Positions 3,510 to 23,572 of a stretch of DNA of 64,000 nucleotides are shown here, in pieces (position 1 is the stretch's first letter; every line of letters begins with the position of its first letter). The notes beneath the pieces were generated by a model. The model ran no database searches and was not told where the DNA came from. It saw only the letters and a program-made list of their open reading frames with translations. Source of the DNA: Oscillospiraceae bacterium (GTDB lineage Bacteria > Bacillota > Clostridia > Oscillospirales > Acutalibacteraceae). The stretch spans positions 1-64,000 of the forward strand of contig SVQC01000001.1 of assembly GCA_015065585.1 (NCBI GenBank), written 5' to 3'. The position numbers and the translations under genes were made by a program.

Positions 3510-4275
3510 TGATATGAGAAGAGCTATTAACCAAATAAAATTGAGTGATTCTGTGAAAAAACAAATATATAACAACTGTAACAGGGCTCCATCAAACAAA
3601 TATTCAAAACGTTTAATTATGTGTTCGGTTGTTGCTTTAATTATTTTAAGTGTAACTTTGTCAAATTTATTTAATAAAAATTTGTCTTTTGATTTTTCTA
3701 TAAAAGTATATGCTATAGAACATCAAAATGAGTATTATGAATATAAACTTGCTGATATGTCGTCCTTTATAATAGATGAATCTAATTATTACATAATAAC
3801 ATCTCAAAATGTAATTTTAGAATCTTTTGAAGTGAATTTGATTGATGATAATATAAAGGATATAAAATATACCATAAATAACGGGGAGTTTTTCGAATAT
3901 CAACAACTTAATGATGCTATTTACGAAAAGTCTGTTCATGAGCTAATTGATAAAAATTATGTATTTGTATATAAAAATAATCAATATTTTTTGTTTGATG
4001 ACTGCAAGAAAAGCAATTTTTCATCATCTTATTTTTCAAAAAATAATAAAGGAAATGAGGATTTTATAGTAAAAAGAATAGGGAATACCTATATAAAAAA
4101 TAGTGATTCAAAAGTGTTTTTAGGAGTACCTCTTGAAGACAAAGAAATAAAGGATTGTATTGTTAATATGGATATTTCTTTTAATGATGGCAAACGAATG
4201 AGTAAATCAATACTAATCAAACAAGAATATTTACTTGATAATAATATAAAGATTGACTTCATTATTTGTGATTAA
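3499..4275 (+). CDS. Probable membrane-anchored anti-sigma factor
   Basis: 258 residues. A short charged cytoplasmic N-terminus (about 1-37) is followed by one membrane helix (about 38-60, LIMCSVVALIILSVTLSNLF) and an extracellular domain of about 195 residues with no recognised catalytic motif. The call rests on topology and on its 11-base overlap with the ECF sigma gene, not on a recognised anti-sigma motif; no zinc-binding HxxxCxxC is present. The ectodomain may sense the signal that releases the sigma factor. Base composition is as AT-rich as the rest of the island. Confidence 0.6.
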   Translation: MTVNDMRRAINQIKLSDSVKKQIYNNCNRAPSNKYSKRLIMCSVVALIILSVTLSNLFNKNLSFDFSIKVYAIEHQNEYYEYKLADMSSFIIDESNYYIITSQNVILESFEVNLIDDNIKDIKYTINNGEFFEYQQLNDAIYEKSVHELIDKNYVFVYKNNQYFLFDDCKKSNFSSSYFSKNNKGNEDFIVKRIGNTYIKNSDSKVFLGVPLEDKEIKDCIVNMDISFNDGKRMSKSILIKQEYLLDNNIKIDFIICD

Positions 4276-10862: not shown

Positions 10863-11750
10863 ATGAGTTATTTCACTTTTGATTTAAGAGAAACTGTGAA
10901 GGTTGCCGTTATGGGCAGGGAACATCTTATCCCACCGACCCTTCACTGTCAACGTAAAATCAAATGCTATGTTCTGTATTTTGTGACCCAGGGAAAGCTT
11001 ACCTTGATGGTAAATGATGAACCTGTTGAACTTTTACCCGGTGATATTTATATTTTTAACCGTCACGATGTTCAACAGCCAAATGAAACGAGTGACTGTG
11101 AATATTTCTTTGTTCACTTTGACGGGGATAAAATTGAAAAGCATCAGGGCGACTATATTGAGTGTGTCAGACGCAAAAATCTTGAGTTTATTAAAGCAAG
11201 TCCATATAGTCTTGAACGCTACGATAATTTTAATATATCGGTTCGTCAGCATATACAGATTAAGGACAAAAATAATATTGATTATCTTGTGGAAAAATTT
11301 CGGGGAAGCGCCCTTGCTAAAGAAAATAGCAGTATACGACGCAGTTTTGAACTTTGCGCTAATTTTACAGCTATTCTTATCCGCCTCGAAAAAATCTGCG
11401 AGAGAAATGTAGTCAGTACAAAGCGAGAAAGTCAAACCTATAATACAGTAAGAAAAATTGCCGACTATATAAACAAAAATTATAACGAAGATATAAACGG
11501 AGAAATGGTTGAAAAACTGTTTTCGATAAATTACGATTATGCCAACAGAATTTTTAAAGGTTATCTGGATGTCAGCATAATCCGTTACCGTAACGAGAGA
11601 AGAATAGACAGAGCAAAGTTCCTTCTTTCTGCAACTGAAAAGAGCATTGAGGAAATTTCCTCTGAAATTGGTTTTGAGGATAAGTACTATTTTTCCCGTC
11701 TTTTTACAAAGCTTGAGGGCATTTCGCCTTTAGCATATAGAAATAAATAA
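10863..11750 (+). CDS. AraC-family transcriptional regulator of the GRE sugar operon
   Basis: 295 residues. The N-terminal half is a cupin-like sugar-sensing domain (VELLPGDIYIFNRHDVQQP, about 55-75). The C-terminal ~100 residues hold two helix-turn-helix motifs ending in the family signature (IEEISSEIGFEDKYYFSRLFTKLEGISPLAYR). The ATG at 10863 follows AGGTGG by six bases. The stop lies 21 bases before the mutarotase-like gene on the same strand, so the regulator probably heads and controls the operon in response to a sugar. Confidence 0.88.
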   Translation: MSYFTFDLRETVKVAVMGREHLIPPTLHCQRKIKCYVLYFVTQGKLTLMVNDEPVELLPGDIYIFNRHDVQQPNETSDCEYFFVHFDGDKIEKHQGDYIECVRRKNLEFIKASPYSLERYDNFNISVRQHIQIKDKNNIDYLVEKFRGSALAKENSSIRRSFELCANFTAILIRLEKICERNVVSTKRESQTYNTVRKIADYINKNYNEDINGEMVEKLFSINYDYANRIFKGYLDVSIIRYRNERRIDRAKFLLSATEKSIEEISSEIGFEDKYYFSRLFTKLEGISPLAYRNK

Positions 11751-11771: not shown

Positions 11772-12089
11772 ATGAAACGTATAGGAACTATTACAAAGGT
11801 TAAACCCGGTATGCTTGATGCATACAAGAAAATCCACGACGAAATCTGGGATGATGTTGTTGCCGCTTCTCATGAATGCGGAACAAGAAATTTCACAATT
11901 TTCAACGTGGGTGATTATCTTTTCTCTTACAGCGAGTATGTTGGCGACGATTATGAAACTGATATGAAACGTAAGAGCGAAATGCCTGCTATCAAAAGAT
12001 GGAAAGAGGCAACCGGTGCTATGCTTATGCCTGTAAATGATGAGGCTGCTGCACTTGTTTTACCAGAACTTTTCCATTGTGATTTTTAA
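11772..12089 (+). CDS. L-rhamnose mutarotase family protein
   Basis: 105 residues, the usual length of the RhaM/RhaU family (PF05336). RhaM interconverts the anomers of L-rhamnose. Tyr18 and His22 in AYKKIHDEIW and Trp77 in KRWKEA align with the catalytic Tyr/His and the conserved Trp of E. coli RhaM as I remember it. No rhamnose isomerase, rhamnulokinase or aldolase is nearby, so the true substrate may be another sugar handled by this operon. Confidence 0.78.
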   Translation: MKRIGTITKVKPGMLDAYKKIHDEIWDDVVAASHECGTRNFTIFNVGDYLFSYSEYVGDDYETDMKRKSEMPAIKRWKEATGAMLMPVNDEAAALVLPELFHCDF

Positions 12090-12110: not shown

Positions 12111-14390
12111 ATGAGTAAAATCAGAAACGATTACAAGGTAGATTTCGTACCCGGTGAACGCCTTAAAAAAGTTATTGATTATAATCAGGAACTTGCTTAT
12201 ACCGGTAAAAGAAATCTTTATACTGCAGATACTACACAGCTTGTGTACCACTGGACCGATAAGAGTAACGGCGTTGTACCCCGTACAGGCGAATGGTCTT
12301 ATCCTCCGGAAATGAACCTTTCTCTCGGTGACCACGGTTGCCGTGTTGATAACGGTCAGGATTTCCCCCGTTACGATGAGGTTCCTTCTCACGTAAAGGG
12401 CTATGAGGCTACTCCTGAAAGCTGGGCTGAAGACTATTCCTTCCTTCTTGAAAACACCCCCGTTTCAATTAATCCTTACGAGTCTATCGTTGGTGAATTC
12501 CATTGGGAAATGAACGAGGTTAGAAAATATTACTTCGGCGACCATGTTCATGAGCTTGGCAGAGAGGTAAGAAAACTCGGCGCAGGCGGTACCAGCCACG
12601 GTCATACCTGTCCTGACTTTAATATCGGTCTTACTCAGGGATGGGGCGGTATCTTAAAGCGTATTGAAGAATCCCTTAAATTATACGAGCGTCTTGAACA
12701 GGCTGAAAAGGTTGGCTACTTAAGAGGCCTTAAAATAGTTTGCCAAGCTATTATTGATTATATCAAGAAGTATGCCGATGCTGCTGCTAAACTAGCAGAG
12801 GAAGAAAAAGATGCTGAACAGAAGGCTCTTTATGAACTTATTGCAAGCGACTGCGCTTATATTGCTGAAAATCCCCCTGCAACCTATCATCAGGCTATTC
12901 AGTGGCTTCAGTTTGCTATCATGACCGACCGTATCGTTGGTCACGGTAATGGTTACGGAAGACTTGACCTGTATCTTAATGACTTCTATCAGAAAGATAT
13001 CAAGGAAGGCCGCATTACCCGTCAGGATGCAAGAGAATATCTTGCTGAAATGTTCCTCAAAATCAGAGGTCAGCATTTCTCTATCGGCGGTCGTCTTAAG
13101 GACGGAAGCGACGCTTCTAACGAAATGAGCTTTGTTATTCTTGAGTCTTACGATATGATAGACGACTATAACAACCTCTTCCTTATGTGGCATAAGGATA
13201 TCGACCCCAAGCTTATGGATTATGCTTGTGACGTTCTTGCAAGACACGGTGCAAGTGTTCCTTCTATGGCTAACTACGACCTTCTTGTTGACTGTCAGCT
13301 TCGTTCGGGCGTTGACCCCGATATCGCATGGAACGTTGCAGTAAGCGGATGCCAGTGGTTCTGTCTCCCCGGCAGAGAATACTGCGACCAGGACGTTAAC
13401 GCTCTTGTACTTCTCGACCCCATGTGGCGTGCTATTGACAGAGGTATTGAAGAAAACATTACCGATTTTGAACGTCTTATGGAACTCTTTACCGAAGAGT
13501 TTAAAAATACCAGCGAAGCACTTCGCGTTTTCAAGGATGCTCAGTATGATGTTCTTGATAAGGTTTGGCCTGAAATGGCAACCTCTCTTAATTGCCACGG
13601 TCCTATTGAACGCGGCGTTGATATGACCGGTGCTCGCGGTGTTGATTATCAGTATACTTCTACTAATATTCTTGGTATTCCTAACGTTGCTGACTCTCTC
13701 TTTGCTATCAAGAAGCTTGTATTTGAAGAGGGTGCATACACTCTTGCAGAGGTTAGAAAAGCAACCGACGAAAACTGGAAAGACAACGAAGTTATGCGAC
13801 AGCGTTTCTTACGTCAGAACAAATTCGGTAACGATATTGATGATGTTGACGAGCTTTGTGTTCGTATCTGCGATATTATTGCCGACATTCTTGACGCTAC
13901 TAAGAACAACAGAGGACAGCAGTATCGCGCTTCTCTCTTCCAGTTCCAAGGTCATACCTGTACAGACGTGCTTCCGGCAACTCCCGACGGAAGACTTGCA
14001 GAAGAACCTCTTGCACACGGCTGTAATCCTACTGCAGGAAGAAACGTTAACGGTCTTCTTGCTACCGCTAACTCTGTTACCAAGATTAAGAACTATAAGT
14101 TCCAGGGTGGCTCTCTCCAGGTAGAGCTTCAGCCTAAATTCTTTGACGGTAAGGAAAATATCGGTCAGTACATTAAGAACTTTACCGAGGCTTTCTTTGC
14201 CAGAGGCGCTTTCCAAATTAACCTTAATATAATTGACCTTGAGAAACTTAAGGATGCTATTGACGACCCCAATAATCCTGAGTACAGAAATATAATCGTT
14301 AAGGTTACCGGCTATACTACCAGATTTATCTGTATGGCTAAACCCTTCCAGATTGAATTTGTAGGCAGAAATAACTACGAATCGATTTAA
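12111..14390 (+). CDS. Glycyl radical enzyme of unassigned subclass (PFL-like)
   Basis: 759 residues. The C-terminal glycyl-radical loop is IVKVTGYTTRF with Gly734, 25 residues from the end, as usual for the family. The active-site cysteine loop is VSGCQWFCLPG with Cys414, plus a second Cys418. The GCVE motif of GRE eliminases (choline lyase, diol and hydroxyproline dehydratases) is absent: Gln replaces Val and Trp replaces Glu. The adjacent Cys-Cys of pyruvate formate-lyase is absent too. The activase gene follows 11 bases later. Neighbours (two mutarotases, sugar isomerase, transketolase) point to a sugar or sugar-derived substrate. Codon use is strongly biased to C-ending codons, like the ribosomal genes here, suggesting high expression. 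GRE identity is firm; the reaction is unknown. Confidence 0.92.
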   Translation: MSKIRNDYKVDFVPGERLKKVIDYNQELAYTGKRNLYTADTTQLVYHWTDKSNGVVPRTGEWSYPPEMNLSLGDHGCRVDNGQDFPRYDEVPSHVKGYEATPESWAEDYSFLLENTPVSINPYESIVGEFHWEMNEVRKYYFGDHVHELGREVRKLGAGGTSHGHTCPDFNIGLTQGWGGILKRIEESLKLYERLEQAEKVGYLRGLKIVCQAIIDYIKKYADAAAKLAEEEKDAEQKALYELIASDCAYIAENPPATYHQAIQWLQFAIMTDRIVGHGNGYGRLDLYLNDFYQKDIKEGRITRQDAREYLAEMFLKIRGQHFSIGGRLKDGSDASNEMSFVILESYDMIDDYNNLFLMWHKDIDPKLMDYACDVLARHGASVPSMANYDLLVDCQLRSGVDPDIAWNVAVSGCQWFCLPGREYCDQDVNALVLLDPMWRAIDRGIEENITDFERLMELFTEEFKNTSEALRVFKDAQYDVLDKVWPEMATSLNCHGPIERGVDMTGARGVDYQYTSTNILGIPNVADSLFAIKKLVFEEGAYTLAEVRKATDENWKDNEVMRQRFLRQNKFGNDIDDVDELCVRICDIIADILDATKNNRGQQYRASLFQFQGHTCTDVLPATPDGRLAEEPLAHGCNPTAGRNVNGLLATANSVTKIKNYKFQGGSLQVELQPKFFDGKENIGQYIKNFTEAFFARGAFQINLNIIDLEKLKDAIDDPNNPEYRNIIVKVTGYTTRFICMAKPFQIEFVGRNNYESI

Positions 14391-14401: not shown

Positions 14402-15355
14402 ATGAATAGTTCAGAGGGCTTTATATTTGATATATATCGGGGCACAACACATGACGGTCCCGGTATGCGCACGACGGTGTTTTTTAAAGGCTGTCCTCTG
14501 CACTGCGCATGGTGTCATAATCCGGAAAGCATTTCTTTAAATCAGCAAATTTGGTGGGAACAAATGCAGTGTATCGGCTGCGGTGAGTGTGAAAAAGCTT
14601 GCTCCTTGTCCGCCGTTAAACTTACTGAGACTGGCGTAAAATTCGACAGAGATAAATGTGTTCTTTGCGGAGGCTGCGCTAAAGTATGTCCTACTAAAGC
14701 AATTTCCTTTGTAGGAAGAAATGTTACTGTTGACGCTCTATTTAAAGAGGTTAAAAAGTATCAGGCTTATTATAAAACCTACGGAGGCGGAGTAACCGCC
14801 TCCGGCGGTGAGCCGCTGCTACAGCATACCTTTGTTAAAAACCTCTTTGAATTGGCCCATGAAGAAGGGATACATACCGCTCTTGATACAAGTGGCGCTG
14901 TATCCTTTGACGCTTTTGAGGAAGTTCTTCCTTTTACCGACTGTGTGCTTTACGACATTAAGACGGTAGATAAGAATTTACATAAAGAGTATATAGGCAG
15001 TGATAATAAACTCATACTTGATAATATACTTAAAATTGCTGAGAATATAAGAAACGGCGAAAAGTATGAGCTTTGGATTAGAACTCCTTTGATACCTTTG
15101 TTTACGGCAAGCGAACAAAATATTTCGGAAATTGCCGTATTTATTAAAGAAAACCTTATGGATGTTATATCCAGATGGGAAATGTGCACCTTTAATAAGG
15201 CTTGCCTTAACAAATATGAAAGACTTGACCTTAATTGGAAGTGCAAAGACGCACCTGTTATCAGAAGCAGTGATATTGAAAATATTAAGAAAACTGTTGA
15301 AAATACGGGTTTCGATATGAATAAACTTGTTATTTCCGGTCTTATAGCCGATTAA
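14402..15355 (+). CDS. Glycyl-radical enzyme activating protein (radical SAM)
   Basis: 317 residues. The radical SAM cluster is C-x3-C-x2-C at Cys31, Cys35 and Cys38 (GCPLHCAWCHN). It is followed by a ferredoxin-like insert with two Cys4 sets (Cys57/60/63/67 and Cys86/89/92/96) that would bind two [4Fe-4S] clusters. This is the extended class of GRE activases, not the short PFL-activase form. The GGG(V)TASGGEPLL motif near 130 is standard. It would cleave S-adenosylmethionine to install the radical on Gly734 of the upstream enzyme. It is oxygen sensitive, so the host must be an anaerobe or have an anaerobic lifestyle. Confidence 0.95.
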   Translation: MNSSEGFIFDIYRGTTHDGPGMRTTVFFKGCPLHCAWCHNPESISLNQQIWWEQMQCIGCGECEKACSLSAVKLTETGVKFDRDKCVLCGGCAKVCPTKAISFVGRNVTVDALFKEVKKYQAYYKTYGGGVTASGGEPLLQHTFVKNLFELAHEEGIHTALDTSGAVSFDAFEEVLPFTDCVLYDIKTVDKNLHKEYIGSDNKLILDNILKIAENIRNGEKYELWIRTPLIPLFTASEQNISEIAVFIKENLMDVISRWEMCTFNKACLNKYERLDLNWKCKDAPVIRSSDIENIKKTVENTGFDMNKLVISGLIAD

Positions 15356-15372
15356 AACAGGAGATGAAAAAT

Positions 15373-16446
15373 ATGAGCGCTGTAAAAATTACACAGCAAA
15401 GCCTTGGTAAAATTTCTACCGGCGAAGAAATTATTACCTACCGTCTTGAAAACGGTACGGGTGCTTATTGTAACATCGTAAACTATGGCGGTGCTATTAC
15501 CAATATAGTTGTTCCAGATAAAAACGGTAAACTTGACGATGTGATTATAGGCTACGATACTGCTGAGTCTATTGAGGCTTGGGGCGGTCATTTCGGTAAA
15601 TTAGTAGGCAGATTTGCCAATAGAATTGCCGAAGGTAAATTTACCCTTAACGGAAAAACCTATGAACTTGCTAAAAACAACGGAGAAAACCATCTTCACG
15701 GCGGTCCCGGCGGTTTTCACGTTAAGTTCTGGGATGGAGAGATAGTAGGGGATAAGCTGGTGCTTACCTTACTTAGCCCCGACGGAGATGAGGGTTATCC
15801 CGGTAATCTTAAGGTAAGGGTTGAATATTCCTTTGATGAGAATAATACCTTGTCTATTAATTATGAGGCTGTTTGTGATGAAGATACTATAATTAACCTC
15901 ACAAATCACGCTTTCTTTAATTTAGGCGGTCTTCACTGTAAAGACGTAACCGGTCATCTTATGAAGCTTAATGCCGACCGCATAACTGCCGTTAAGGACA
16001 GAGGCTGTATTCCTACGGGAGAGCTTATGCCTGTTGCCGATACTCCTCTTGATTTCAGGGAGTTCAGAGCAATCGGAGAGAGAATTAATGATTTTGATGC
16101 TTGCGAGCAGTTAAAGTTTGGTAACGGTTATGACCATAACTATGTAATTAACGATTGGGATAAAACCCTTAAATGTGCCGCGGTTACTATTGAACCCGAG
16201 TCCGGCAGAAAGATGGAAACATATACTGATGCCCCAGGAGTTCAGTTCTACAGCGGTAACGGTCTTGGAAATTATCCCCACACCAGAGGAAAGTTGGGTG
16301 TTCCTCATGTGACTTATCAGGCATTTTGCCTTGAAACTCAGTATTTCCCCGACAGCGTAAATCATCCGGAATTTCCGTCTTGTGTTCTTAAAAAAGGCGA
16401 AACCTTTAAGACTTCAACACAGTACAGATTTTCGGTAGATATATAA
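15373..16446 (+). CDS. galM: Aldose 1-epimerase (galactose mutarotase)
   Basis: About 357 residues from the ATG at 15373; the ATG at 15364 abuts the AGGAG and is too close to be used. It interconverts alpha and beta anomers of aldoses in the cytosol. Family features are GRFANRI, NHLHGGPGGFH with two histidines, LTNHAFFNLGG with the catalytic His region, and the C-terminal FCLETQYFPDSVNHP with the catalytic Glu. It lies between the activase and isomerase genes with short gaps. It is the second mutarotase of the operon, which suggests that anomer supply matters to the pathway. Confidence 0.92.
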   Translation: MSAVKITQQSLGKISTGEEIITYRLENGTGAYCNIVNYGGAITNIVVPDKNGKLDDVIIGYDTAESIEAWGGHFGKLVGRFANRIAEGKFTLNGKTYELAKNNGENHLHGGPGGFHVKFWDGEIVGDKLVLTLLSPDGDEGYPGNLKVRVEYSFDENNTLSINYEAVCDEDTIINLTNHAFFNLGGLHCKDVTGHLMKLNADRITAVKDRGCIPTGELMPVADTPLDFREFRAIGERINDFDACEQLKFGNGYDHNYVINDWDKTLKCAAVTIEPESGRKMETYTDAPGVQFYSGNGLGNYPHTRGKLGVPHVTYQAFCLETQYFPDSVNHPEFPSCVLKKGETFKTSTQYRFSVDI

Positions 16447-16466: not shown

Positions 16467-17870
16467 ATGTTGGATTATAAAGTAAAAATCGGTCTTATTC
16501 CTGTAAGACGCGACACAACTCCCAGAAAAGGTATCTTTAACTGGGAAAAAGCTGAAGAACGCGGCAAGAAAAACATCAAGTACATAAAAGAGCATTTTTC
16601 TGACGAAAATGTAAGCTTTATCGATTTGGAGGGTATTACCGAATCACAGCTTCTTTTCAGTGAAGATGATGTTCCTATGGTTGCTGAAAAGTTCAGAGAG
16701 GCAAAGGTAGACGCCGTACTGTTTATCAATGCTAACTTCGGTCCTGAAGAAACTGTAGCTCTTGCTGCAAAGGCAATCGGTAAACCCGTTATGATATGGG
16801 CTCCTATCGATGATGAATTTGAACCCGACGGTTCCCGTTGGACTGACAGCCAGTGCGGTCTTTTCGCCGTAAGCCGTCAGCTTCAGAGAAGAAATATTAA
16901 ATTCTCTTATATTGAAACCTGCGCTGTTGAAGACGAACCTTTTACCAAAGGCTTCAAGGATTTCATCGCCGTTGCCTGTATGGTTAAGAACTTCAAGGAT
17001 ATGCGCGTAGGTCAGATGGGTCTTCGTCCGAAGCCTTTCTGCTCTGTAATGTTCAACGATGCTGAGCTTTTGCAGAAATTCGGTATTCAGATTGTTCCTA
17101 TCAACAACGTTGTAATGCGTAAAAAGTTTGATGAGGTTATGGCTGAAGATTCCAAAGAATTAAATGATGGTGCTAAACTTATTCTCAGCAGATATATTGC
17201 ACAGGATGACTTTACTGAGGAAAAAGCAAAAATGGTATATGCACTTGTTGAAGTTTACAAGTGGATGTTCGCTGAATATAAGCTTGACGTTATCTGCGCT
17301 GAATGTTGGTCTGCCCTTATGAAAGATTTAGGCGGTATCGGCGTGTTCCCCTGTATTGCATATTCTATTCTTGCTGATATGGGTTATATCATTTCCTGTG
17401 AAAGCGATATGAACGGCGTACTTACAATGGCACTTCTTTCTTGCGCTTCTCTTGGTAAGAATCCTCCTTTCTTTGGTGAATTCACCATCAGAGGACTTCA
17501 CGACAGAAATGCTGAACTTATCTGGCACTGCGGACCTTTCGCTTATTCTCTTAAAAAAGAGGGCGAGCAGGCTAAATGCTGTGACCAGAAACAGTGGTTT
17601 CCCGTTAAAGACGGTCACTACACCGTTTCTCGTATTGACCAAGACAACGGCGAGTACAAACTCTTTATCGGTGAATTTGATACCACTGACGGTCCTTACA
17701 CCACAGGTACTTACCTCTGGGCAAAACTTGATGATTTTGCTAAGTGGGAAAGAAAACTTATTGAAGGCCCCTATATTCATCATATGGCTGAAATTGAAGG
17801 CAGCTACGGCGATGCATTCAAAGAGTTTTGTAAGTTTGTTCCGGGAATCACTGCTGACCCCGTTGAATAA
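16467..17870 (+). CDS. L-fucose/L-arabinose isomerase family protein
   Basis: 467 residues. The overall shape is that of the fucose/arabinose isomerase superfamily: a Rossmann-like N-terminal part (IGLIPVRRDTTPRKG...), a middle part with the QMGLRPKPF turn, and a metal-site segment CESDMNGVLTMALLSCASLGKNPPFFGEF followed by a His in WHCGPFAYSL. These enzymes need Mn2+ or similar to interconvert aldoses and ketoses. The protein is shorter than FucI (about 590) and does not look like canonical AraA. It probably makes the ketose that the transketolase downstream requires. Substrate unknown. Confidence 0.78.
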   Translation: MLDYKVKIGLIPVRRDTTPRKGIFNWEKAEERGKKNIKYIKEHFSDENVSFIDLEGITESQLLFSEDDVPMVAEKFREAKVDAVLFINANFGPEETVALAAKAIGKPVMIWAPIDDEFEPDGSRWTDSQCGLFAVSRQLQRRNIKFSYIETCAVEDEPFTKGFKDFIAVACMVKNFKDMRVGQMGLRPKPFCSVMFNDAELLQKFGIQIVPINNVVMRKKFDEVMAEDSKELNDGAKLILSRYIAQDDFTEEKAKMVYALVEVYKWMFAEYKLDVICAECWSALMKDLGGIGVFPCIAYSILADMGYIISCESDMNGVLTMALLSCASLGKNPPFFGEFTIRGLHDRNAELIWHCGPFAYSLKKEGEQAKCCDQKQWFPVKDGHYTVSRIDQDNGEYKLFIGEFDTTDGPYTTGTYLWAKLDDFAKWERKLIEGPYIHHMAEIEGSYGDAFKEFCKFVPGITADPVE

Positions 17871-17896: not shown

Positions 17897-18739
17897 ATGG
17901 CTGATATCAACAAAATTCAAGAATTAAAAGACCAGGCATATCAGATGCGTCAAATGATTGCAAGACTTGCAAGAAAGGTTGACATCCATATCGGCGGTGA
18001 CCTTTCTATGACCGATATGATGACCGCAATTTATATGTATAAAATGCGTAAAGACCCTCAAAACGTTAAGTGGCCCGGTCGTGACAGATTCTTACTTAGT
18101 AAAGGTCACGGCGCTGGATGCCTTTATGTAGCAATGGCTATGGCAGGTTATGATGACCTTGACGAAATTTATGAAACCTACGGTAAATTCGGTAGCCGTT
18201 ACGGTGCTCATCCCTGTAAGGTTCAGAACCCTGCTCTCGAAATGTCTTCCGGTTCTCTTGGTCACGGTCTTGCACTCGGTGCAGGTATGGCTCTTGCCGG
18301 CAAGCTTAAGAAAGAAGACCATTACGTATTTGTAATGCTCGGCGATGCTGAGTGTGCTGAAGGTTCTGTCTGGGAAGCTGCTCTTTCTGCTTCTAACTTC
18401 AAGCTCGGTAACCTTGTTGCTTTCGTTGACCGTAATAAAATGAGTCTTAGTGCTCCCACCGAGGATTCTCCCAACGGTATGAAGATGGAACCCTTTGCTG
18501 ATAAGTGGAGAGCTTTCGGATGGAATGTAAAGGTTATCGACGGTCACAACATGGAAGAAATCGTTGAAGCTCTTGACAATCTTCCGGCTGAAGATTCTGA
18601 TGTACCTACTGTAATTATAGGCAACACCATTAAGGGTAAGGGTATTGACTTTATCGAAAACCTTGCTCAATGGCACAACGGTACATTTGATGATGAGCAG
18701 CTTGAAGCCGCTCTCAAGTCTTTGGAAAAGACTCGCTAA
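17897..18739 (+). CDS. Transketolase, N-terminal (TPP-binding) subunit
   Basis: 280 residues, the N-terminal half of a split transketolase. The thiamine-diphosphate motif runs from GDAECAEG (Gly149-Asp150) to the Asn at 180 in FVDRN. The substrate histidine region KGHGAG is at about 70-75 and GGDLSM at about 33-38. It transfers two-carbon ketol units between a ketose and an aldose. It requires the partner encoded 21 bases downstream. Codon use is strongly biased as in highly expressed genes. Split transketolases occur in many anaerobes; this one may be dedicated to the GRE pathway. Confidence 0.93.
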   Translation: MADINKIQELKDQAYQMRQMIARLARKVDIHIGGDLSMTDMMTAIYMYKMRKDPQNVKWPGRDRFLLSKGHGAGCLYVAMAMAGYDDLDEIYETYGKFGSRYGAHPCKVQNPALEMSSGSLGHGLALGAGMALAGKLKKEDHYVFVMLGDAECAEGSVWEAALSASNFKLGNLVAFVDRNKMSLSAPTEDSPNGMKMEPFADKWRAFGWNVKVIDGHNMEEIVEALDNLPAEDSDVPTVIIGNTIKGKGIDFIENLAQWHNGTFDDEQLEAALKSLEKTR

Positions 18740-18760: not shown

Positions 18761-19720
18761 ATGATTGAAACTTATAACTTAGGCGAATGCATTCGCAGTG
18801 CCCGTCCCATAATGGATGAGGTAATTATGGAATATACAAAGCAGAACGACAAGTTTTATCTTATTTCTCCCGATATGACTCGCGCTGCTTTCCCAAAATT
18901 TATGAACACTTGCAGTGACCGCAATATAAACGTTGGTATTGCTGAAACTGCTGCTGTTGACATTGCTTCCGGTATGGCTCTTGAAGGTTTCTTACCTTAT
19001 GTTTACGGTATGTCTGCTTTCCTTAGTATGCGTTCCTTTGAAGCTATCCGTACCAACGTTGGTTATCAGAACCACAATGTTAAATTCATAGCTTGTAACA
19101 CCGGTGTATCTCTCGGTATGCTCGGTTCTACTCACTATGCTATGGAAGACCTTGCTCTTGTAAGCACTATTCCCAATATGACAGTTATCTGTCCCGGTGA
19201 CCCCGACCAGACTGTAAAGGCTTTCTATGCCGCTGCTGAAATAGACGGACCTGTTTACATCAGAATGGCTAACGGTAAGAATGAATCTGCTGTTTACAAA
19301 TCACAGGATTATGAGTTCAAGATTGGTAAAGGTATTACCATTCGCGAAGGCGAAGACCTTGCTCTTATCGCTTGCGGTGTTATGGTATCCTATGCTAACG
19401 AAGCTGCAAAACGCCTTGCTGAGCAGGGTATTAATGCTACCGTTATCGATATGCACACCATTAAACCTCTTGATGAAGAACTCGTATTAAAGGTTGCTAA
19501 GAATATCGGTAAAATCGTAACCGTTGAAGACCACTTCAAAGCTTGCGGTCTTGGTACAAAGGTTGCATCTATCGTCGCTGAAGCAGGTATTCCATGTAAA
19601 GTTAAGAAGTTAGGTATCCCTGATATGTATCCCGGATTCGGTCCTTTCAAAGACCATCTTGAATTTATGGGTTACGGCACCGAAGGTATTATTGATGCCG
19701 CTAAGGAAATTGTAAAATAG
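18761..19720 (+). CDS. Transketolase, C-terminal (Pyr and C domain) subunit
   Basis: 319 residues, the partner of the preceding subunit. The pyrimidine-binding domain contains the catalytic Glu in NVGIAETAAVDIASGMA, followed by MRSFEAIRTNV. The C-terminal domain has GIPDMYPGFG near the end. The two proteins together equal a full transketolase of about 600 residues. It is the last gene of the operon, followed within 20 bases by a hairpin terminator. Confidence 0.93.
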   Translation: MIETYNLGECIRSARPIMDEVIMEYTKQNDKFYLISPDMTRAAFPKFMNTCSDRNINVGIAETAAVDIASGMALEGFLPYVYGMSAFLSMRSFEAIRTNVGYQNHNVKFIACNTGVSLGMLGSTHYAMEDLALVSTIPNMTVICPGDPDQTVKAFYAAAEIDGPVYIRMANGKNESAVYKSQDYEFKIGKGITIREGEDLALIACGVMVSYANEAAKRLAEQGINATVIDMHTIKPLDEELVLKVAKNIGKIVTVEDHFKACGLGTKVASIVAEAGIPCKVKKLGIPDMYPGFGPFKDHLEFMGYGTEGIIDAAKEIVK

Positions 19721-19765: not shown

Positions 19766-19819
19766 CTAATTTTAAAACTAGCAATTTTACTAAAAATTAT
19801 TGTATTGAGGATTAAAATT

Positions 19820-22800
19820 ATGAAAAAGTATATAAGCATAATACTTTGTATGTGTATGCTGTTATCTTTGGTTGTATTCCCAGTAAATGCTATTGAAACT
19901 ACATATGCAGGGGATACTTATTATAAGTTTACCTTTGGCTCGGGCGGTACGGCATACGGGCAATACGTTAGCGGACAAACCGCTACCCATAAAGGAGTAA
20001 CTTATTATCCCCTTATAGACCAGATTCCTGGAAGTACTACGGCGTCGGTGACAGCTATTACAGATAAAAATACACAGCAGCCTGTTAACACCTTGCGTGT
20101 TGAAGGTTCGAACGGTAGCCGTTGGAAAATGGTTCCGTTAAAATCCGACGGAACGCCCTTTGAGGTAGCACCTAACAGTTCTTATACTGTAAAAATCAAA
20201 ATGTTCGTTGAAGATAAGGCTAGTTCAAGTCAGTTCTTTATGGGACTTGCTGCGTATAAAACCAACGGTTCAACCAGCCATGACAGCAGAACAACATCTC
20301 AAGGTTGGTTTAACGGCAGTTTTGTTACAAGTCAGGTGGTTCATTCTCCTTTCTTATCAGGCACTGTACTTTCAGGCGCGCAAGCGCATTATACTGATTT
20401 TGATAGTTCCAGAACTGCTCAGTATATTGAAAAAGAAGTAACTATTGCCACCGGAAATAACGCCGTTTATGATTCGCAAAACAATACGTATAAATTTGTT
20501 TTTGACCTTATCGGAAGTGAAAATACCGTTGAAAATACCAATTACTTCTTCCTCTCAGGTTACGGTAAAGAGTTTTCGGTAGAAAACGATGGAACCTATG
20601 CTGATACCGTTCATATAGTAGAAATCGAAATTCAGAAGAATCCTGCTTCTGTTACATTTGTTAACGGCGGTAGTAGTTCTTCCAAAGTTTTTGTGTCAGG
20701 GTCAAATATAGAGTATCCTACTCTTACTGCAAATAGAAACGGTGACTATGTATGGTCATTGTCTAATGAAGAATATATTCCTGCTCCGGCAAAAATGCCT
20801 TTGGAAAGCATTACCGTTTATGCTATGCAGAGAAATATTATCGGTTTTGAAAACTATAAGTATTGCGATTATACTGATATTTCCAACCGTATAGAAGTAA
20901 GCTCTGAAAAGGCATATATAGGCGATAAATCACTAAGATATCAAAATGTTGAATATAAGCTTAGCGAAGAGGTAACCGGTGGTAAGCCCTTTAGCTTTGA
21001 TGGTAGCTATTATAAATACTTCTATACCTATAATGAATCAACAGGTCAGTATGCGATAGTTCCTGAGGGTACTGCTCCTACTTGGCAATCGGGCAAATAT
21101 TATATTAAACGTCCGGCTGATGCTTTAGAACATTCTATTGAACTCTGGAAACTTGAAAGCAATAAGAATTATAGGGTTTCCTTTAAATATTATTTTGATG
21201 AGAGCAGTCAGTGCAGTTTAAAATTAAAACCGTTTTCATCAGCTTCAAGTAATATATGGGGAACTACTGTATTTTACGGTGACGGTAATATTACCTTAAA
21301 TAAACCTGAAACTGCAGGCTGGCAGGAAGGGGAATTGTATTTCTCTACCGGTAATCTTTCAAGTGCTACCGAGTACCTTTATTTACAGCTCGTTAACGCT
21401 GCAAATAATGATACGACTCCCATAACTGTTTATTTTGATGAATTTAAACTTGAAGAAAAGGTGCCTAATCAAGTGGATGACCCAAATGTTGAGTATGGTA
21501 GTGACCTTATAAGTTACTGCTCATTTGAAAATACTTCTACAACATCTCCTTACGGATTTGTTGATTACGTAAATAATTATGCTATTGCCCGCGTAGATAA
21601 GCATTATATTGAAAACGGCAAAAAAATTATGGGCGAATGGAGCCTTAACGGAAGATACGGTTTTGATTCCACAAACATTTCCGTTTCAAATTCAGGTTAT
21701 GAAAGTACTCGCAGTCTTGAGTTTAAGCAAGCTAATGCGAATAGCGGTAATTCTGTAGCCTATAAAATTGCCGATATAGGTAACGGTTTTATACTTGAGG
21801 ATAAAACTACCTATAGATTAAGCTTCTACTATAGAGCAGACGGCGTCAGCGATAAGGATTTAACCTTTAGCTTTGTTAACGCTATGGATAAGGACAGAGT
21901 TGCCACTATAAATGCCAGCAACACCTTAACTATCGCCAGCGCAGATGTTAAAAGCGGTTGGACCTTCGTTACCGTTGACCTTACAACCGATTTTGATAAA
22001 ATTGGTGGTAATATCAGCGGCGAGGCTTACTGTATTCCTGCTATAGTTGTTAATGCTAATATAAATGATACCGTAAGAACTGTTCATATGGATAATTTTG
22101 CAATTTGCAAACCACTCAGCAATTCTATGGTATCTGTTCTTAATGATGATGCGAGTCAGAAGGTAGGCGCTCAGGCTCTTCGTTTCTATTTCAGTTACAA
22201 CGCCGATGCTGACGGAAAGCTTTTATTAAGTGGTAACACCTATGAGCTTAGCGCGAGAGGTATACTTATTTCGATTTCCGGAAGCGGAGAAGAACTTGTA
22301 AGGGAAAACTCTAAAATTTATAAGGCTGAGAAAACTGAAAAGCTTGATGAATATTGGAGTTATAATAGCGGTGCACTTACATTCAGCGCATATATTAAGA
22401 ACTTTGATACAACAGATTCAAGAAAGCTTGAAGTCAGGGGCTATCTGGTTCTCTCAGACGGTTCAATTTTGTACTCTCCTATTTCTGAGTACAGTCTTGA
22501 TGACGTAAAGGGCTATTACGATATAACTGCAAGTTCCACCTATTATTCTTTAACCGACAATAACGTTATTTCAAAGGTCGGTTTTGAAGGCGCCAACGAA
22601 AAGACTTCTAACGGTTATACTTTCGACTGGAACGGTTCTGCTCTCGTTGTTACCGCTAAAACCGCAGGTAAGATGAAGGTGTATTTAAGCGGTAGTGTTG
22701 AAGGACGTAACTTTACTCTCTATATTGACGGCGAACTTGTTAGCGATAAGTTAAAACCTGTATATGAAAGTGGTAAATATACTGTTACCTTTGATGTTGG

Positions 22801-23572
22801 TAATTATCCGACGGTTAAGGAAATACGTTTTATCCGTCAGCAAGAAGCCGCTAATGGTACTGCTGAAATTCACGGCTTTGATATGTGCGGACAGCTTATG
22901 AAAACTGAAGATAAAGATATTCTTATTGAATATATTGGCGACTCTATTACCAGTGGTATAGGTGTTCATAGTATTCATCACGAGCATAGTGGCACTGCTG
23001 TAAATGACGGTACTAATTCTTATGCTTTCCTTTCTGCTCAATATCTTGGCGTTAACTACAGAATTCGTTCAAGAGAAGGTATCGCGCTTAATCAGGGCTA
23101 CGCATATTTAGGAGTGAATAAACCGGGCGCTAACTGGATTTCAACCTACAATTATGAAAATTACTGGAGAAATCAGACGGATAATACTTACTTGGAATCA
23201 AGGGCTGCTGATATTGTAGTAATATATCTTGGAACAAATGACGTGTTGAGCGGAGGCCTTTCTAGCTTTAATAATGATAGTATACATAGTTTTATTAACA
23301 TTGTTAAAGAACATAATCCAAATGCTAAAATCGTTTGGATTAGTGGTGGTATGAAAACAGAATACCGTCCTAATCTAGAAATGGCTTTGAATAGTTTAGG
23401 CGGAGAGTCTGCCGGATATTATATCTGTGATATGCCCGCAGAATTTGCTTATAAGGATGCAAGTGGTAATTACGTAAATACAGGTTACCACGGACACCCT
23501 GGTGCAGAACAGCAAAAGGTTATGGCTCATACTCTAATAGACTTTCTTAAGGCTAAAAATCTTGTAGATTAA
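19820..23572 (+). CDS. Large secreted multidomain SGNH/GDSL hydrolase (carbohydrate-esterase-like)
   Basis: About 1250 residues from the ATG at 19820, with GAGG upstream. The signal peptide has a long hydrophobic core ending near VNA. The middle holds a Listeria-Bacteroides-repeat-like module (about 285-340) and two jelly-roll, CBM-like modules (about 345-550 and 565-780). A beta-sandwich (about 940-1030) precedes the catalytic domain. SGNH blocks are YIGDSITSG with Ser1042, YLGTNDV with Asn, and GHPGAEQQ with His1226. A sandwich plus SGNH pair recalls CE2-type deacetylases. Probably removes acetyl groups from extracellular polysaccharide. No LPXTG, SLH or dockerin was seen, so it may be freely released. 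Module borders are approximate. Confidence 0.8.
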   Translation: MKKYISIILCMCMLLSLVVFPVNAIETTYAGDTYYKFTFGSGGTAYGQYVSGQTATHKGVTYYPLIDQIPGSTTASVTAITDKNTQQPVNTLRVEGSNGSRWKMVPLKSDGTPFEVAPNSSYTVKIKMFVEDKASSSQFFMGLAAYKTNGSTSHDSRTTSQGWFNGSFVTSQVVHSPFLSGTVLSGAQAHYTDFDSSRTAQYIEKEVTIATGNNAVYDSQNNTYKFVFDLIGSENTVENTNYFFLSGYGKEFSVENDGTYADTVHIVEIEIQKNPASVTFVNGGSSSSKVFVSGSNIEYPTLTANRNGDYVWSLSNEEYIPAPAKMPLESITVYAMQRNIIGFENYKYCDYTDISNRIEVSSEKAYIGDKSLRYQNVEYKLSEEVTGGKPFSFDGSYYKYFYTYNESTGQYAIVPEGTAPTWQSGKYYIKRPADALEHSIELWKLESNKNYRVSFKYYFDESSQCSLKLKPFSSASSNIWGTTVFYGDGNITLNKPETAGWQEGELYFSTGNLSSATEYLYLQLVNAANNDTTPITVYFDEFKLEEKVPNQVDDPNVEYGSDLISYCSFENTSTTSPYGFVDYVNNYAIARVDKHYIENGKKIMGEWSLNGRYGFDSTNISVSNSGYESTRSLEFKQANANSGNSVAYKIADIGNGFILEDKTTYRLSFYYRADGVSDKDLTFSFVNAMDKDRVATINASNTLTIASADVKSGWTFVTVDLTTDFDKIGGNISGEAYCIPAIVVNANINDTVRTVHMDNFAICKPLSNSMVSVLNDDASQKVGAQALRFYFSYNADADGKLLLSGNTYELSARGILISISGSGEELVRENSKIYKAEKTEKLDEYWSYNSGALTFSAYIKNFDTTDSRKLEVRGYLVLSDGSILYSPISEYSLDDVKGYYDITASSTYYSLTDNNVISKVGFEGANEKTSNGYTFDWNGSALVVTAKTAGKMKVYLSGSVEGRNFTLYIDGELVSDKLKPVYESGKYTVTFDVGNYPTVKEIRFIRQQEAANGTAEIHGFDMCGQLMKTEDKDILIEYIGDSITSGIGVHSIHHEHSGTAVNDGTNSYAFLSAQYLGVNYRIRSREGIALNQGYAYLGVNKPGANWISTYNYENYWRNQTDNTYLESRAADIVVIYLGTNDVLSGGLSSFNNDSIHSFINIVKEHNPNAKIVWISGGMKTEYRPNLEMALNSLGGESAGYYICDMPAEFAYKDASGNYVNTGYHGHPGAEQQKVMAHTLIDFLKAKNLVD

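Follow-up and report, generated by a model that had tools for sequence, protein, structure and literature searches.

The window analysed here, a stretch of 64,000 nucleotides from an Oscillospiraceae bacterium, contains a gene for a glycyl radical enzyme (GRE) in which Trp stands at the position held by Glu in the eliminases, and it raises the question of what reaction such an enzyme carries out. Only a few reaction classes are known among GREs, and the eliminase Glu beside the thiyl Cys is regarded as the base. A sequence-only reading of the locus had proposed, from this loop, a reaction chemistry or substrate geometry unlike that of the known subclasses. The features on which we base our answer are collected in Table 1.

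Table 1 Features of the GRE and of the surrounding genes (window coordinates)
Feature	Position	Strand	Basis
AraC-family regulator	10863..11750	+	PF12833, PF02311
RhaM-type sugar mutarotase, only genome copy found	11772..12089	+	PF05336 3.3e-20
GRE, 'GCQW' subfamily member, 759 aa	12111..14390	+	Pfam, alignment, tree, AF2 model
H165-T166-C167	12603..12611	+	H165 aligns with glycerol dehydratase His164; C167 invariant in family
H278-G279-N280-G281-Y282	12942..12956	+	H278 aligns with glycerol dehydratase His281; HGNGY family-invariant
Thiyl-radical loop G413-C414-Q415-W416-F417-C418-L419-P420	13347..13370	+	Alignment; G413/C414/Q415/W416 invariant in 25 members, C418 not
D428 (Cys+14)	13392..13394	+	Aligns with glycerol dehydratase Asp447; offset equals that of IAD His514
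Glycine-radical site V732-T733-G734-Y735	14304..14315	+	Pfam, alignment
GRE-activating radical SAM enzyme (CX3CX2C, ferredoxin-type clusters)	14402..15355	+	TIGR02494 297.5 bits > cutoff 174.35; Pfam Radical_SAM, Fer4
Aldose 1-epimerase (GalM type)	15364..16446	+	PF01263 1.3e-84
FucI/sulfoquinovose-isomerase-like sugar isomerase	16467..17870	+	NF048012 105 bits vs cutoff 700; PF02952 below cutoff
Transketolase, N-terminal half	17897..18739	+	PF00456 9.2e-44
Transketolase, C-terminal half	18761..19720	+	PF02779, PF02780
Large protein with GDSL/CE2-like acetylesterase region	19805..23572	+	PF13472 3.1e-9; CE2_N 3.2e-4 (below cutoff)

The protein carries the marks of the GRE superfamily. Pfam identifies a PFL-like barrel (PF02901, 2.4e-94) and a C-terminal glycine radical domain (PF01228, Gly_radical, 1.1e-15), the thiyl Cys and the radical Gly are both present, and the neighbouring radical SAM enzyme has its CX3CX2C in the motif CPLHCAWC. 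It does not fall into a named family: every NCBIfam match lies below its cutoff (the best, TIGR01774, at 286 bits against 678), and no equivalog cutoff is reached, the best equivalog scoring 231 bits against 1000. Residues 408–420 are encoded by bases 13332–13370, with codon 414 (TGC) at 13350–13352. Of the further GRE genes on contig C36 of the same genome, one (G000:C36:1324-3121) is apparently interrupted by an in-frame stop codon, TAA.

A scan of the GTDB species collection together with further genome searches gave a family of 25 members, the window's own included, which are 46–88% identical to the query. Their hosts are Bacillota (Oscillospiraceae, Lachnospiraceae and other Clostridia), Chloroflexota and Lentisphaerota. 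GCQW is found in all 25, down to ~46% identity, and is followed by Phe or Tyr. In a maximum-likelihood tree of these members and 15 other GREs, the family forms one side of a 100/100 branch of length 1.86, the position of its stem being unsure as the outgroup branches are long. No intermediates to other GREs were found in 219 phylum genomes, where the next-best GREs are 28–33% identical. We take the GRE to belong to a distinct, uncharacterised subfamily, judging by the sequences compared, and the loop to be a mark of this clade and not a product of chance or drift. A change of frame near 4221, perhaps a true frameshift and perhaps a sequencing artefact, divides the GRE gene at L014:3220-5438.

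The positions that are invariant in all 25 members include C414, Q415, W416, E423, D428, H165, C167, D169, HGNGY (278–282), W360, H361 and G734. The assignment of Cys414 in SGCQWFCLPG, which we read again from the open reading frame, and that of Gly734 in the VTGY loop as the radical Gly are thus both borne out, as are the Trp at Cys+2 and the absence of a PFL-type Cys-Cys pair (here C414-Q415). The second Cys four residues on, which had been offered as a feature of the loop, does not hold up in the same way: C418 is Ser in three of the 25 (L003, L004 and L010) and so cannot be essential. C425 is also variable, with Ser or Gln in L049 and L060–L062. The position of C167, in contrast, is occupied in the 15 other GREs by Ser, Thr, Val, Ile, Ala or Leu, never by Cys. 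The earlier observation was therefore right and its interpretation half right; the better ground for setting this enzyme apart is the fixed pair Trp416 and Cys167, not C418. The residue before the radical Gly is Thr (VTGY) throughout the family, whereas most of the other GREs compared have Ser or Ala there.

How far the loop departs from those of known enzymes depends on the class considered. Glu is found at Cys+2 in all of the eliminase loops read (1r8w, 5i2a, 8id1, 8id0, 8yjo and CutC), and the window GRE is without the GCVE-type loop of the glycerol dehydratase, propanediol dehydratase, CutC and HypD type. It also lacks the adjacent Cys-Cys of PFL, which a PFL-type GRE of the same genome has (loop CCVS). 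For IseG, deprotonation of the substrate OH is ascribed to a conserved Glu acting as base (PMC6453916). The decarboxylases HPAD and IAD have Glu at Cys+2 (Glu1), where the window GRE has W416; in IAD, His514 at Cys+14 is a proposed substrate-binding residue (PMC6181972). The absence of both Glu and Cys-Cys is not unique: the loop of 7e7l reads GCVLH, and two other sampled GREs have GCVVP (L067) and GCVYM (L068). The first of these two, at L067:1495-3864 (-), is CutC-like and scores up to 764 bits to choline lyase, yet has Val for Glu; it looks to be a second Glu-less lineage near the eliminases. GCQW itself is shared with none of the loops compared, a set outside which benzylsuccinate synthase, MasD and PhdB lie.

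The pocket, on the other hand, has a familiar composition. H165, H278 and D428 are the equivalents of glycerol dehydratase His164, His281 and Asp447, which contact the diol in the published structure, and they give the enzyme a pocket of the diol-dehydratase kind. Among the 15 other GREs compared, all three are kept in just L072. On this alignment, the GCQW family would have retained the polyol-binding His/His/Asp set and lost the Glu base. The loss of a Glu that is kept by all eliminase loops read, in a clade that is uncharacterised, argues for an altered chemistry or geometry and to this extent upholds the proposal made from the sequence; since the glycerol dehydratase His/His/Asp positions are kept, the loop alone is no proof of a new reaction.

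An AF2 model built from 22 rows (pLDDT 89.3, pTM 0.90), which replaced a first model of pLDDT 74, is closest in fold to glycerol dehydratase, with Z 38.1 and 2.4 Å over 695 residues. Tied with this match are propanediol dehydratase and PflD (8yjo, and 8id0 with bound 1,5-anhydromannitol-6-phosphate). The mean pLDDT is 87 for residues 411–420, 86 for 421–430 and 81 for 161–170, and residues 161–169 do not form one continuous strand in this model. The pocket-facing residues were assigned from the alignment.

The genes around the GRE point to sugars. Eight genes, all on the + strand, follow each other with gaps of 8–26 bases throughout, in the order AraC, rhaM, GRE, activase, galM, FucI-like isomerase, and transketolase N and C halves; the large GDSL/CE2-like protein, after a gap of 84 bases, is possibly the last gene of the operon. 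The same gene order is seen at L002. At L001 the sugar genes and rhaM-GRE-activase form two divergent groups, together with an RbsD/FucU protein. L004 has a ribokinase above its curated cutoff (336.8 vs 299.65), a TRAP-type importer, rhaM and a 56%-identical homologue of the L001 RbsD/FucU protein, and L011 has a D-lyxose isomerase and a fructokinase-like kinase. A ribose-type ABC importer adjoins GRE and activase, with no further sugar enzyme, at L060, L061 and L063; a XylE-like sugar porter is found at L049, and a split transketolase lies ~4 kb upstream at L048. L006, which lies in Anaerotruncus massiliensis, combines rhaM and a TRAP-type importer (its TRAP genes named from sequence) with two alcohol dehydrogenases and a KduD-like SDR. 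In the Chloroflexota locus L009 (5367-12157), E1-alpha, E1-beta, E2 and DUF4432 genes precede the GRE with gaps near zero, DUF4432 being directly upstream, which suggests that an acetoin- or 2-oxoacid-dehydrogenase-type step may belong to the GRE pathway there.

The mutarotase gene rhaM is present as a single copy in six genomes (G000, G618, G628, G620, G621 and G625), and in all six it lies <3 kb from the GRE. The naive chance product for this proximity is 10^-18.6, which overstates independence because the six genomes are related. Its placement varies among loci, being upstream of the GRE, divergent or fused; near the GRE of L005 and of L011, the RhaM domain forms part of a fusion protein whose other portion is hydrolase-like (beta-helix or GDSL-type). 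In family members beyond the Bacillota subclade of the window GRE, no rhaM was found next to the GRE gene. The thread common to the GRE loci is free-sugar import and mutarotation.

From these data, we consider the enzyme, somewhat more probably than otherwise, to represent a separate GRE subfamily that serves anaerobic sugar catabolism and has a free cyclic monosaccharide as substrate. That its substrate is a sugar seems very likely. The adjacent radical SAM activase would install the radical on Gly734, from where it would be relayed to Cys414, and the Cys414 thiyl would abstract H from a C–H of the sugar ring, the mutarotases supplying the anomer. Trp416, at the position of the eliminase Glu base, would provide a platform on which, quite probably, the sugar ring stacks, while His165, His278 and Asp428 would bind sugar hydroxyls and do acid-base work. 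The product would pass to ordinary sugar enzymes, in the window the aldose isomerase and the split transketolase, and elsewhere a ribokinase or a D-lyxose isomerase with its kinase. An ordinary sugar is favoured as product because of the operons with importer and GRE only and the ribokinase and lyxose isomerase neighbours. However, the downstream enzymes differ between loci, so that some associations may be incidental; substrate and product are read from context, and the window isomerase scores far under every curated cutoff. The 2-oxoacid-dehydrogenase-type E1/E2 genes of L009 and the alcohol dehydrogenases and KduD-like SDR of L006 are also less easily reconciled with a plain sugar product. 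Found in three phyla, with a fixed Trp, the His/His/Asp set and the company of sugar genes, the clade is a concrete candidate for a new way in which gut and sediment bacteria transform sugars anaerobically.

For the net reaction, our first choice, to which we give rather less than an even chance, is an elimination or the opening of a ring, the base having been relocated; elimination chemistry is favoured because of the glycerol-dehydratase-like residue set. In the favoured, still tentative, form of this explanation, the enzyme would be a dehydratase or ring-opening lyase that works like the 1,5-anhydrohexitol-6-phosphate GREs or glycerol dehydratase, except that E423, D428 or a His would act as base instead of the Glu. 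The conservation of H165, H278 and D428, the invariance of E423, the top fold matches (glycerol dehydratase, propanediol dehydratase and PflD) and the dehydrogenases of L006 agree with this, but Glu is at Cys+2 in every eliminase loop read, and a deoxy-keto sugar is not what one would readily expect ribokinase, lyxose isomerase or transketolase to accept. That the net reaction is epimerisation or another isomerisation we regard as somewhat unlikely. In its favour, the products seem to enter ordinary sugar metabolism, as in the operons of importer, GRE and activase alone at L060, L061 and L063, with the ribokinase of L004 and with the D-lyxose isomerase of L011. Here, Cys414 would take H from one face of the sugar and a second thiol would return H to the other, by which a rare aldose would be converted to one that the cell can use. 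An epimerase needs no base, so that the lost Glu would be explained, and the best candidate for the second thiol, Cys167, is fixed in the family, is replaced in the other GREs compared and lies two residues from H165, itself aligned with a pocket residue of glycerol dehydratase. Against a radical sugar epimerase or isomerase of this kind, which we rate as unlikely, we know of no GRE epimerase; the radical would also have to be handed back between two thiols at every turnover, and C167 may not face the pocket, given the interrupted strand in the model. That this would be the first GRE to epimerise or isomerise a free sugar without net elimination, with Cys414 and Cys167 on opposite faces and the ring held by Trp416, is quite improbable; if true, it would open rare sugars to anaerobes.

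C–C cleavage or some other reaction is likewise on the unlikely side. The characterised Glu-less GREs seen, PFL and the 7e7l arylacetate decarboxylase, cleave C–C bonds; TRAP importers, frequent carriers of sugar acids, occur at L004 and L006, and L009 has its 2-oxoacid-dehydrogenase-type genes. A PFL-like or decarboxylase-like enzyme cleaving a C–C bond of a sugar, sugar acid or keto sugar is, all the same, rather improbable, for the PFL Cys-Cys pair and an aromatic-acid context are absent, the glycerol-dehydratase-like set is kept and importers of the ribose and XylE types speak for neutral sugars. The fold and domain layout would also suit an ordinary known GRE (choline lyase, propanediol/glycerol dehydratase, hydroxyproline dehydratase and the like) with a drifted loop, which is very hard to maintain when all equivalog scores are far under cutoff, identity to solved GREs outside the ribonucleotide reductases is low (19–26%) and the 100/100 clade has an invariant GCQW, an invariance that already contradicts drift. 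The marks GCQW, HGNGY and HxC, being specific to the family, could sort GREs that now stand under generic 'formate C-acetyltransferase/glycerol dehydratase' names.

As a gene cluster, the window has analogues in the sulfoglycolytic SqvD/SqwGH and apiose AptAB pathways, in which a FucI-family isomerase (SqvD) and two-gene transketolases are described (PMC9594981, PMC13001218). Sugar catabolism is shared with the window, but neither core pathway has a GRE; the window isomerase falls well short of the SftI cutoff, and no apiosidase was found in the window genome. Sulfoquinovose catabolism is not supported, with the isomerase at 105 bits against a cutoff of 700 and the operon containing no sulfonate gene. 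Apiose catabolism was likewise set aside, as PF13204 has no match in the window genome or in the two genomes most closely related to it. At L043:1454-9557, in the genome that holds L010, a related isomerase (~35%) and a transketolase N half lie near two apiosidase-like PF13204 proteins, which suggests an apiose route with isomerase and transketolase enzyme types; this cluster has no adjoining GRE and is kept as a lead. At L041:8533-18001, a paralogue with 49% identity to the window isomerase stands beside GlcD-like, class II aldolase, PfkB-like, KduI/IolB-family and DUF4867 genes, in what appears to be an uncharacterised sugar pathway. In the literature searched, with many subscription papers outside it, we found no report tying GREs to a GCQW loop, to 1,5-anhydro sugars or to a matching gene context.

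The solved GREs, ribonucleotide reductases aside, are 18–26% identical to the window GRE in structural alignment. The benzylsuccinate and alkylsuccinate synthases (4pkc, 9o8u), compared by fold and identity, are at 19–20%. PFL has the same fold (Z 29) and likewise no Glu, but Cys-Cys in place of Cys-Gln-Trp and 20% identity. The arylacetate (p-hydroxyphenylacetate) decarboxylase 7e7l of Olsenella scatoligenes is also without Glu at Cys+2, but has Leu/His where the window GRE has Trp/(Phe/Tyr), acts on an aromatic substrate and is 22% identical. The 1,5-anhydrohexitol-6-phosphate GREs PflD/YbiW (8id0, 8yjo, 8id7) are likewise GREs acting on a cyclic sugar derivative and tie in fold (Z 36.5–37.6); their ligands, however, are phosphorylated anhydro-sugars, the PflD chains keep the Glu (GCVEL, GCVET) and identity is 23–24%. 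Glycerol dehydratase (1r8w) and 1,2-propanediol dehydratase (5i2a, 9rco) share the whole fold (Z 37–38, ~2.4–2.5 Å over ~694 residues), the placing of the thiyl Cys loop and the glycine radical loop, and the His164/His281/Asp447 equivalents. At 23–26% identity they differ from the window GRE in having GCVEP for GCQW(F/Y), Ser282 for Gly, Ser166 for Cys167 and a stretch of ~20 residues before QNLIVGG that it does not have, and its sugar operon also sets it apart from them.
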